Source: a virus. Taken from it: a DNA stretch of 20,764 bases. The translations under genes and the position numbers were made by a program. A model generated the notes under the pieces. It saw only the letters and a list, made by a program, of their open reading frames with translations, made no database searches and was not told the origin of the DNA. Positions 11,187-14,575 of this stretch are shown here, one piece after another. Location: the IMG/VR virus record IMGVR_UViG_3300044643_000383, positions 1 to 20,764 of that record. One strand, 5' to 3'. The stretch's first letter is position 1. Each line of letters opens with the position of its first letter.

Positions 11187-11208
11187 CCCTCTTCACTAGC
11201 ATTAAGGA
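11187..11208 (+). promoter_or_regulatory. Right-arm motif copy 0 (diverged, no adjacent gene)
   Basis: CCCTCTTCACT-agcat-TAAGGA. The stretch CTCTTCACTAGCATTAA differs by one base from the copy at 11395. No start codon follows within 50 nt. Confidence 0.5.
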
Positions 11209-11390
11209 TTCACCTATTAGGCAGCAAAGCTAGGAATTCTTTGTGCAGGGAGAAGTGTTTGCATGCATGACATGGCTAGCATGTGCAGTGCAGTGCATGG
11301 CAAGGCAGGGAGCAACATGATGTGAGCAGGCAGGCCAGGCCACGGGCACACATGTATATATATGTATATGATGCATTAGCATATATATAG
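11209..11390 (+). ncRNA. GC-rich foldable block after motif copy 0
   Basis: About 140 nt rich in GCATG, GTGCAG and GGCAGG words, higher in GC than the surroundings and with no ORF. TTGCATGCA (11259-11267) pairs with TGCATGGCAA (11294-11303), one bulge, around CATG-gctag-CATG. It ends with TATATATATG/CATATATATA (11355-11389), a perfect 10-bp inverted repeat just before motif copy 1. A small RNA is possible. Confidence 0.35.
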
Positions 11391-11394
11391 GGCA

Positions 11395-11416
11395 AACTCT
11401 TTACTAGCATTAAATA
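11395..11416 (+). promoter_or_regulatory. Right-arm motif copy 1
   Basis: AACTCTTTACT-agcat-TAAATA, with the ATG 5 nt later at 11422. Read as the promoter core or a transcription/translation start element of the small-gene array. Confidence 0.75.
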
Positions 11417-11421
11417 CAACT

Positions 11422-11592
11422 ATGAAAAAAGAAAGTCTTGTTTGGTTTTACATTGTAATCATTGTATTGTCTGTCATGTTAATCATGGTAGGAACAACAG
11501 TGAATGACACGTTATGTACTGTGTTCACATCCACTCTTGGTGTTATGTGTATAGCAGTAGCAGGTGTTCAATTGTATAATGCACGGAGCTAA
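11422..11592 (+). CDS. Small two-helix membrane protein
   Basis: 56 aa (MKKESLVWFYIVIIVLSVML...YNARS). Two hydrophobic helices, about residues 7-24 and 36-52, flank a short polar loop with Asn and Asp. No family recognised. It is the first unit of the small-gene array: motif copy 1, a 5-nt gap, the gene, then a hairpin whose loop holds the stop codon. A membrane role early in infection, such as superinfection exclusion or envelope modification, is a guess from size and position. Confidence 0.75.
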   Translation: MKKESLVWFYIVIIVLSVMLIMVGTTVNDTLCTVFTSTLGVMCIAVAGVQLYNARS

Positions 11593-11598
11593 TCCGTG
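11582..11598 (+). terminator. 3' hairpin with stop codon in the loop
   Basis: CACGGA-gctaa-TCCGTG, 6 bp. The TAA at 11590-11592 lies in the loop. No T-run follows, so it may protect the 3' end rather than terminate. Confidence 0.55.
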
Positions 11599-11615
11599 TG
11601 TTATACATATTAAGA

Positions 11616-11637
11616 AACTCTTTACTTCTATTAAATA
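11616..11637 (+). promoter_or_regulatory. Right-arm motif copy 2
   Basis: AACTCTTTACT-tctat-TAAATA, ATG 7 nt later at 11645. Confidence 0.75.
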
Positions 11638-11644
11638 CATAATT

Positions 11645-11863
11645 ATGAAAGATTCTATTGATTACATTGATATCATTGATATCAAAATGGCACAGGTTAA
11701 GCGTAACCTTGAGAACAAAGACCATGAACATTATAACTATTTTGTAGGTAGACTTGCAATACTGATAGAGTTGCGTGAGATAGCAATTCAGGATTGTGAA
11801 GAACATCACGCTGACGTAGTAAAGCAAATGCTTAAGGTTAGACGTGTTGTTAACAAGATGTAA
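11645..11863 (+). CDS. Small charged helical protein
   Basis: 72 aa from the ATG at 11645, chosen because it follows motif copy 2 like every other gene of the array; an upstream in-frame ATG at 11564 lies before the motif and inside the previous gene. The sequence (MKDSIDYIDIIDIKMAQ...VKQMLKVRRVVNKM) is helical and highly charged with a basic end, perhaps a coiled coil. No domain recognised. Confidence 0.75.
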   Translation: MKDSIDYIDIIDIKMAQVKRNLENKDHEHYNYFVGRLAILIELREIAIQDCEEHHADVVKQMLKVRRVVNKM

Positions 11864-11865
11864 TG

Positions 11866-11889
11866 AGAGGGGAGCAATCCCCTTTCTTC
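11866..11889 (+). terminator. Hairpin terminator
   Basis: AGAGGGGA-gcaa-TCCCCTTT (11866-11885 core) followed by CTTC. The stem starts 2 nt after the TAA of the 72-aa gene. Confidence 0.65.
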
Positions 11890-11902
11890 ATTGCAACAGG
11901 GA

Positions 11903-11924
11903 AACTCTTTACTATCACTAAATA
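11903..11924 (+). promoter_or_regulatory. Right-arm motif copy 3
   Basis: AACTCTTTACT-atcac-TAAATA, ATG 7 nt later at 11932. Confidence 0.75.
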
Positions 11925-11931
11925 TAACATC

Positions 11932-13338: not shown

Positions 13339-13491
13339 ATGAAAAAGTCAACAGCCTATGCGTTGCTCTACATTGCAACAATCCTTGCAGTAGCAGCATT
13401 AACATCTTGTACAACCACTCGCAGTTGTGAAGATTCATTCAGACCAAAGATTAAAGAGAACTACAACCCACGAGGTACCAATTGGTGGTAA
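13339..13491 (+). CDS. Small phage lipoprotein A
   Basis: 50 aa. A lipoprotein signal peptide is plain: MKKS, a hydrophobic stretch (about 6-21) and the lipobox LTSC with the modified Cys at residue 24. The mature part is 27 aa, polar, and ends GTNWW. No acidic Bacteroidota export signal follows the Cys, so a periplasmic face is likely. Phage lipoproteins of this size often act in superinfection exclusion or receptor masking. A similar protein is encoded at 17487. Motif copy 10 overlaps its stop codon. Confidence 0.8.
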   Translation: MKKSTAYALLYIATILAVAALTSCTTTRSCEDSFRPKIKENYNPRGTNWW

Positions 13492-13511
13492 CTCTTAACT
13501 TAAATCAAACA
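13490..13511 (+). promoter_or_regulatory. Right-arm motif copy 10
   Basis: AACTCTTAACT-taaat-CAAACA (one change in the first box), ATG 2 nt later at 13514. It overlaps the TAA of lipoprotein A, so no hairpin separates these two genes. Confidence 0.6.
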
Positions 13512-13513
13512 AC

Positions 13514-13732
13514 ATGAAAGCACTAATTGCATTCTTTAAAGCCATTGGTACAACCTTGGCAATCTACATCACTGTACTTGTAACTCCTGCATTAACCGCA
13601 GTTGCGTTAACAGGCAGATGGTCCAAGTACACTGAATTCATGGATTCAGATAACTATGTTGGGGGCATGTCAGTCCTTTCCCTCATTGTTATTACAGTCT
13701 ATTGGGTTATGGAAGAAGAATACCGCGGGTAA
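13514..13732 (+). CDS. Small membrane protein with two helices
   Basis: 72 aa. Hydrophobic segments at about residues 5-32 (IAFFKAIGTTLAIYITVLVTPALTAVAL) and 49-65 (GGMSVLSLIVITVYWVM) are joined by a polar loop with WSKYTEFMDSDNY; the tail is EEEYRG. No family recognised. It follows lipoprotein A with almost no gap, so the two may work together at the envelope, for example in blocking further infection. Confidence 0.75.
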   Translation: MKALIAFFKAIGTTLAIYITVLVTPALTAVALTGRWSKYTEFMDSDNYVGGMSVLSLIVITVYWVMEEEYRG

Positions 13733-13748
13733 CACCGTGGTTTTCTTT
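13722..13748 (+). terminator. Hairpin terminator with stop codon in the loop
   Basis: ACCGCGG-gtaaca-CCGTGGT, 7 bp with a plus-specific G-U pair, then TTTCTTTT. The TAA at 13730-13732 lies in the loop. Confidence 0.75.
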
Positions 13749-13757
13749 TGCTTATGA

Positions 13758-13779
13758 AACTCTTTACTTTTTCTAATTA
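13758..13779 (+). promoter_or_regulatory. Right-arm motif copy 11
   Basis: AACTCTTTACT-ttttc-TAATTA. The start codon (GTG 13805) is 25 nt downstream, further than for copies 1-10, and the leader box TTAACCCTTTAAT (13782-13794) lies between. Confidence 0.65.
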
Positions 13780-13804
13780 TATTAACCCTTTAATTCTTAC
13801 AAAC

Positions 13805-14224
13805 GTGAAAAGATTCACAGCGTATTTCAAAGATGACCGTGAGGTCAGAGAGACAGATGGTTCTATATCTGTAATGTATTACTACCGCATTCCTACACTT
13901 AAAGGTGAAGAGAAAGAGCAGTATAAGGCTGACCGTGGTCAGTATTATGTTGAAGATGCGGATGGTACTCCAAGTTTCAGTGTTAAGAACCGCAATTTAG
14001 GTATTAGCGTGGACATTGTCCGTGCCTTAAAGCCTAATGAGAAGACAGGTACTCATAGTTGGTATGCCAAGCGTGGCTATCTTCAAGTGTATGAGTCTTT
14101 GTGTGTTCAATACCCGGGCATTGCCAAGGGTGACCCTGGTACTTTACGTACTATGGCTGAGCAACAATGCATGAGCGAGAAGCCCGTGATTGTTCTTGAG
14201 CAGGACCCTGTTGACGGGTTCTGA
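13805..14224 (+). CDS. Unknown protein ending in VDGF
   Basis: 139 aa with a GTG start at 13805. In-frame TTG/ATG codons at 13748 and 13754 overlap motif copy 11 and are rejected. The N-terminal half is beta-rich (RFTAYFKDD...SISVMYYYRIP), the middle rich in Tyr and Gly, the end DPVDGF. The next gene also ends VDGF after an acidic or small-residue stretch, suggesting a shared C-terminal docking peptide. A single-strand-binding or annealing role is conceivable for the pair but no OB fold is evident. Confidence 0.7.
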   Translation: MKRFTAYFKDDREVRETDGSISVMYYYRIPTLKGEEKEQYKADRGQYYVEDADGTPSFSVKNRNLGISVDIVRALKPNEKTGTHSWYAKRGYLQVYESLCVQYPGIAKGDPGTLRTMAEQQCMSEKPVIVLEQDPVDGF

Positions 14225-14242
14225 TGTGTGTGTGTTTCCTAT

Positions 14243-14277
14243 ATCCCTGCGTGCCTTATGGTGCGTGGGGATTTTAA
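14243..14277 (+). terminator. Strong hairpin terminator
   Basis: ATCCCTGCGTGCC (14243-14255) pairs along 13 bp with GGTGCGTGGGGAT (14260-14272), loop TTAT, then TTT. Four G-U pairs exist only in plus-strand RNA. Confidence 0.8.
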
Positions 14278-14315
14278 CTTACACTTTGTTACTATCACCT
14301 CTTCTTCCTCGGGGG

Positions 14316-14369
14316 CTGTCCCTGAAATCTCTTTACTTAACTTAATGTATGTAAAACAAGTAAAGAGAT
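14316..14369 (+). promoter_or_regulatory. Right-arm motif copy 12 with CTGTCC element and inverted copy (orphan)
   Basis: CTGTCC (14316-14321), then ATCTCTTTACT (14327-14337), 5 nt, TAATGT. A perfect inverted copy of 12 nt, AAGTAAAGAGAT (14358-14369), faces it. No obvious gene follows. The upstream sequence from CTTCCTCGG on is repeated before copy 13. Confidence 0.6.
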
Positions 14370-14470
14370 AAAAAGATAGAGCAGTATAAAGTGAGATCTT
14401 GTGGTTCAATGTACTGCTTTGGTGTACTACTCTTTATTGGTGTTTCACCGGTGGAGCAACCGCACTTTTG
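14343..14470 (+). ncRNA. Candidate structured RNA after orphan motif copy 12
   Basis: AGCAGTA/TACTGCT (14380, 14412) and, as an alternative, AAAGTG/CACTTT (14388-14393, 14463-14468) with TGGTT/AACCG (14402-14406, 14458-14462, one plus-specific G-U) can pair; GGTG-ttt-CACC (14439-14449) forms a tip. A 38-codon ORF (14409-14525) is possible but weak. Foldable leader or small RNA. Confidence 0.4.
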
Positions 14471-14543
14471 TACTGATTATCAAGTAGTTACGTTTTTAAA
14501 AAATGTTCACAATTGTAAAAGGTGAATTACTCTTCCTCGGCTT

Positions 14544-14575
14544 CTGTCCTTGAGTCTCTTTACTTACTTTAAGTG
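14544..14575 (+). promoter_or_regulatory. Right-arm motif copy 13 with CTGTCC element
   Basis: CTGTCC (14544-14549), then GTCTCTTTACT (14554-14564), 5 nt, TAAGTG at about 14570. A 58-nt leader follows, holding AAGTGTTAT/ATAACACTT (9-bp hairpin, 14571-14595) and the box TTAACCCTTTAAT (14610-14622). Confidence 0.65.

Follow-up and report, generated by a model that had tools for sequence, protein, structure and literature searches.

Which RNA polymerase transcribes a run of small phage genes that are preceded, one after another, by the same short element? The question is raised by the 20,764-nucleotide (nt) stretch of viral DNA analysed here (IMG/VR record IMGVR_UViG_3300044643_000383, positions 1-20,764; hereafter the window), whose repeated element consists of a 12-bp box, AAACTCTTTACT, a five-nucleotide gap (N5) and the bases YTAA. 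Our findings point toward the idea that this element is a crAss-like early promoter, probably read by a giant RNA polymerase that the phage encodes and carries in its virion.

The repetition itself is far above chance. A search of both strands of the window for AACTCTTTACT-N5-TAAATA, allowing up to three mismatches, returned 12 matches, 11 on the plus strand and one on the minus strand (14348-14369); 100 shuffled windows averaged 0.23 and never exceeded 2. The copies at 14327 and 14554 are also good, with YTAA retained and the box intact from position 3 onward, and all plus-strand copies are confined to 11.4-14.6 kb. Thirteen of the fourteen copies listed in an earlier note on this DNA hold; the remaining one, at 11187, departs from the pattern at 5 of its 17 specified bases, precedes no gene and finds no support on its own, yet it has AGCAT in common with the copy at 11395.

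The gap described in the earlier note as a fixed distance between two boxes is indeed N5 in 13 of 13 copies. The 22-nt extent given there has to be redrawn, however, since conservation reaches one base further 5', so that the nearly invariant box reads AAACTCTTTACT, and conservation resumes with YTAA at offsets 15-18 (AA at offsets 17-18 in 13 of 13 copies), which is kept even where the start codon is far away. The proposed second box, TAAATA, stands as far as YTAA is concerned, whereas its trailing ATA belongs in part to an A-rich leader that is generic among these phages, because similar leaders also precede ordinary genes: [CT]TAAA[TA] occurs within 27 nt before 25-27% of the ordinary genes of the relatives G040 and G037, compared with 3-4% for random windows. 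These ordinary leaders prefer A at -13 to -11, -6 and -3, and resemble the Kozak-like leaders described for Flavobacteriia.

A typical unit runs from a hairpin with a T-rich tail through 8-23 nt, the element, a start codon and one small gene to the next hairpin. Where the earlier note placed start codons 4-8 nt after the element, of the nine copies with a gene immediately behind them, eight have them at 4-7 nt and the one at 13490 at 2 nt (unit 9); the last two of the eleven array genes have longer leaders, of 25 nt after copy 13758 and 58 nt after copy 14554. Scored for hairpin plus T over the 75 nt upstream, 44 copies in four phages reach a mean of 13.1, compared with 2.4 in mononucleotide shuffles. 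The features of the array, all on the plus strand (+), are as follows.

11395-11416 (+): exact element copy, from pattern search; gene start 5 nt later
11422-11592 (+): single-gene unit 1, 56 amino acids (aa)
11573-11607 (+): 15-pair terminator-like hairpin behind unit 1; next element 8 nt further on
11616-11637 (+): exact element copy
11645-11863 (+): unit 2, 72 aa
11865-11886 (+): terminator-like hairpin after unit 2
11903-11924 (+): exact element copy
11932-12108 (+): unit 3, 58 aa
12090-12119 (+): 13-pair terminator-like hairpin closing unit 3
12132-12153 (+): element copy, 1 mismatch
12160-12402 (+): unit 4, 80 aa; many relatives have homologues, mostly without the element and outside arrays
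12407-12432 (+): terminator-like hairpin after unit 4
12450-12471 (+): exact element copy
12476-12583 (+): unit 5, 35 aa
12572-12591 (+): terminator-like hairpin after unit 5
12611-12632 (+): exact element copy
12638-12817 (+): unit 6, 59 aa
12875-12896 (+): element copy, 1 mismatch
12904-13119 (+): unit 7, 71 aa
13218-13239 (+): element copy with no open reading frame (ORF) behind it
13235-13303 (+): putative small non-coding RNA, from RNA folding: a single long hairpin and then a U run
13311-13332 (+): element copy, 2 mismatches
13339-13491 (+): unit 8, putative lipoprotein of 50 aa, conserved in relatives
13490-13511 (+): element copy, 3 mismatches, overlapping the end of the preceding gene with no terminator between
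13514-13732 (+): unit 9, 72 aa
13722-13741 (+): intrinsic terminator after unit 9
13758-13779 (+): element copy, 1 mismatch; its 25-nt leader contains AACCCTTTAA
13805-14224 (+): unit 10, 139 aa; weak resemblance only to OB-fold/single-stranded-DNA-binding proteins
14243-14272 (+): intrinsic terminator after unit 10
14327-14348 (+): element copy, half of a 12-bp inverted repeat; then a weak 44-aa frame only
14554-14575 (+): element copy, then an RNA hairpin from 14571
14634-15074 (+): unit 11, 146 aa, 58-nt leader

Two of these copies bear on where transcription may begin. RNA starting at 13235 folds as one hairpin (-23.4 kcal/mol, z -3.7) with a U run at its end, and the hairpins after copies 13218 and 14554 both start exactly at element offset 17. 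Since two RNA hairpins begin precisely at YTAA, the RNA 5' end is probably located at or next to this step. Scanning the window against Rfam and for tRNA genes gave no matches. Elsewhere, the loci L116 (7770-7868) and L119 (7764-7859) each show one element copy with no gene in the roughly 75 nt behind it, and have ACCTCACACA in common; no significant folding was found in these stretches, which are perhaps a shared short non-coding RNA.

Two further observations concern the leaders and one of the copies. The motif AACCCTTTAA, or a close variant, is found at 13779-13804 and 14610-14633, in each case 10-25 nt ahead of one of the two larger array genes, and likewise ahead of their orthologues in L116 (7890-7913) and L119 (7883-7906); it is possibly a translational or regulatory site. 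In addition, copy 14327 and the inward-facing minus-strand copy (14348-14369) make up a perfect 12-bp inverted repeat, ATCTCTTTACTT / AAGTAAAGAGAT, whose halves enclose 19 nt (14328-14370).

How the element behaves among relatives is more telling. Array proteins of the window, used as queries against viral contigs, recovered almost no relatives, because the array genes evolve fast; complete relatives were gathered instead with the protein encoded directly 3' of the array, and further ones with TerL.

15775-17178 (+): DUF2828/DUF7788 (TROVE-type) protein, directly 3' of the array

Judging from annotation and position, this protein is the likely counterpart of the early TROVE-domain gene of crAss001, which is among the first genes expressed in that phage (PMC8375218). 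By position and by analogy with crAss001, the array region would be early; the box is confined to one region and one strand, before the array genes.

Related crAss-like phages keep the same architecture with the box replaced in all copies at once, so far in seven versions, and the motif search over relatives suggested by the earlier note found the box private to each phage. Motifs were reached by counting words before gene starts, with significance resting on simple background models; from loci with few units, expectation-maximisation had yielded no clear motif. The versions are:

Window: AAACTCTTTACT
G040: AAACTCCTTACT, 10 copies
G037: AAAGTCCTTAAT, 13 exact copies, 14 by profile
G049: ACAACTTTATAA, 7 exact copies, 9 by profile
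G038 and G042: CCCTTTTCT-N2-TTTAATTAA, about 4-5 copies with mismatches allowed
G032: AAACAGCTCA, 7 exact copies, 9 with near copies
G023: CCATTTTTYAACT, 7 copies

Outside its own phage or pair no version core occurs in several copies, giving a near-diagonal pattern in which shorter cores add a few off-diagonal single matches. Among viral contigs, exact elements of each version likewise recur in one phage alone, those of the window version in its contig-mate L015, other matches being singletons; L015 (G001) overlaps the window over 12,063 bp at 99.9% identity and has the same three first copies. None of 84,980 bacterial genomes contains the window version more than once as an exact match, and the full window-type pattern gave 18 single exact matches, in unrelated phyla, across 257 Gb of DNA from bacteria and archaea. 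In G037 (113.8 kb, terminal repeat 122), all 14 profile matches lie on one strand in one 4.7-kb cluster, and in G040 (116.0 kb, terminal repeat 123) all 10 lie on one strand within 2.7 kb; scans of these two complete genomes gave no matches outside the cluster, and Markov sequences gave none.

Although the gene content of the arrays differs among phages, some families can be followed in and out of them. In the unit-4 and unit-8 families the element is present inside the array and absent where the homologue sits elsewhere (the unit-4 homologue of L116 has a degraded box only), while the orthologues of unit 7 in loci L117 and L121 carry the version of those loci at the same place. As observations apart, three genes of L120 (5900-6690) may be preceded by yet another version, around TTTGCTNNGCAA, and a repeated AACTAAATAACTATG in the relative G011 was rejected as a motif, since it belongs to leaders, partly of paralogous genes.

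What could read such a private box? The setting is crAss-like, as had been proposed, and agrees with the hallmarks of Crassvirales: there are two opposed arms, TerL is crAss-like, with matches mainly to crAss-like and F. psychrophilum phages, and the relatives of the window encode a giant polymerase with the DFDxD motif. Five complete ones (G037, G040, G038, G042 and G045) have ORFs of 3.3-4.8 thousand aa with a GGDFDIDK loop, and the giant ORF of G032 has GSDFDVDK. A profile of the catalytic region, compared with the whole PDB, matched solely 6VR4, the phi14:2 virion RNA polymerase (E 1.9e-28), where phmmer with a single polymerase found no match; tblastn matched annotated crAss-like polymerases. 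Early transcription of phi14:2, considered for its early genes as a whole, is resistant to rifampicin and has been attributed to the virion polymerase (PMC10136315). A T7-type polymerase (PF00940) gave no match in 24 relatives, nor did the control genomes.

Box and polymerase tend to diverge together in the few pairs for which both are known. The polymerases of G038 and G042, the closest pair, are 64% identical and the box version is the same; those of G037 and G040 are 40% identical and the boxes agree at 10 of 12 positions; the other pairs are 26-35% identical, with boxes alike at 4-7 of 12. A similar order emerges when TerL is compared with that of the window, so this trend represents consistency rather than independent co-evolution.

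Taken together, these findings allow us to propose a model, drawn from sequence comparison, in which the invariant 12-bp box would be the recognition sequence of the virion polymerase. RNA would probably start 6-7 nt past the box at Y-T-A-A, which in simple units leaves about 7-13 nt to the start codon. A single short early gene would depend on each promoter, one product probably being a small structured RNA, and most units would be closed by an intrinsic terminator just upstream of the next promoter, so that each gene could be set separately. As one polymerase would read all copies, these could change together as recognition drifts, leaving a private version in each phage.

Several points weigh against this model. 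Copies 11395, 13311, 13490 and 14554 show no hairpin in the scanned 75 nt upstream. The window, a fragment, and the near-identical G001 lack the polymerase region, so the polymerase gene that the earlier note suggested looking for is found in complete relatives and the assignment runs through them; the polymerases compared do not include those of G023 and G049. G011, whose TerL is 89% like that of the window, encodes a polymerase with DFDTD (loop GTDFDTDK rather than GGDFDIDK; contig 17022-27560, loci L103 and L104) but has no detectable array, which indicates that the polymerase does not require one. Likewise, no comparable array was found in cultured crAss001, crAss002 and phi14:2, nor in the p-crAssphage genome.

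Host RNA polymerase could alternatively read the element with a phage-made or packaged factor, in a T4-late-like or activator-dependent manner. The YTAAATA part does resemble an AT-rich box of the -10 type, and phage factors may be too diverged for detection with Pfam. On the other hand, sigma region 2 (Sigma70_r2) was not detected in ten relatives while controls were positive, no second conserved box was found at a -33/-35 spacing, and genes that are expressed first cannot await a newly made factor. Moreover, a Bacteroidota host promoter has TTTG at -33 and TAnnTTTG at -7, and TAnnTTTG, present before the left-arm gene starts at 3683, 9641 and 10073, is absent within 60 nt upstream of every element copy; a loose host-type pattern was not above chance genome-wide. 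The earlier note's view that the element is unlike the left-arm promoters and not read by host sigma-70 is in line with these results and with the private nature of the box. We consider a factor-assisted host polymerase unlikely; transcription of the late arm by the host polymerase and of the array by another would fit the distribution of the two signals.

The element might instead act on RNA, as a translation leader or the site of an RNA-binding protein, with the promoter further upstream. In this regard, the box starts 24-31 nt before most start codons, and one ordinary gene in four has a [CT]TAAA[TA] leader. This explanation would nevertheless have to fit a promoter into the 8-23 nt that usually separate hairpin and box, a gap with no conserved bases, and box and spacing are kept where the start codon lies 45-80 nt away or is absent; the hairpins that start at offset 17 also speak against it, and we regard it as improbable.

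Slightly less credit still goes to repressor or silencer sites, like the stoperators of mycobacteriophage L5, or recombination sites for cassette swapping. Asymmetric sites in a single orientation between units would suit either role, as would array gene content that varies among phages; the position, however, is fixed just before gene starts, the short gap holds no other promoter-like sequence, and a recombination site alone leaves both the position and the terminator on its 5' side unexplained. Cassette swapping may be a by-product of the elements. That the copies arose by chance, or by recent duplication of a single AT-rich leader, is very improbable: the phage is AT-rich and some leaders are alike, but the shuffles, the zero matches elsewhere in complete genomes and the unrelated genes behind invariant boxes contradict it.

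If the element is an early promoter of the virion polymerase, the candidate promoters are short sequences in seven versions, most of them linked to sequenced polymerases, which makes recognition directly testable and specificity swappable. This polymerase family is related to RNA-interference polymerases, and compact private promoters would also make a tool. The single-gene units, as rapidly evolving early genes, are a natural search ground for host-takeover or anti-defence functions.

Other features of the window deserve mention. Three consecutive minus-strand genes (6345-8849) share an N-terminal domain, MDILNW...KRGDKYQSYAM, and differ in their distal parts, one of them with collagen repeats; they are likely interchangeable fibre proteins. 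The non-coding region between the arms (10820-11390) is unusually rich in repeats and in G, with GGGGCATATAAGAA-like repeats and GCATGCATG runs, and is a candidate origin or packaging region. A metallophosphoesterase gene (19124-20125, minus strand) lies inverted downstream of the TROVE-type gene, as in G038 and G042, while in G037, G040 and G011 it lies between late arm and array.

With respect to known systems, no crAss-like promoter sequence was found in the literature searched, a scope outside which Drobysheva 2021 lies, and priority is uncertain. We judge the chances evenly balanced that these are the first recognisable promoters of crAss-like giant two-barrel polymerases, each lineage having its own pair in a mutually exclusive series that arose by concerted replacement. 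The phi14:2 polymerase gp66 (PDB 6VR4) has homologues in the relatives of the window, and the early region of phi14:2 also adjoins the late arm, but without such a repeated box. N4, too, has early promoters for a virion-carried polymerase; these require extruded inverted-repeat hairpins, whereas the element has no meaningful hairpin (0 to -1.5 kcal/mol in single-strand DNA folds of five copies). In P23-45, AT-rich promoters of a tape-measure-fused two-barrel virion polymerase precede pre-early genes (PMC10770324), a motif common to relatives that carry the virion polymerase; those promoters were mapped by sequencing while ours are predicted, and seven P23-45 terminators share a 26-nt motif where those of the array look like ordinary hairpins. 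Finally, promoters of the AR9 virion polymerase read AAATATATATTAT-N6-G+1, a long strict box, a 6-nt gap and the start (PMC5312081). Jumbo phages of the AR9/phiKZ type share with the geometry predicted for the array a long strict AT-rich box, about 6 nt before the start and in many copies before early genes; they differ in sequence and in their multisubunit polymerase, whereas here the box is replaced from relative to relative and its copies stand in one compact array of single-gene units.

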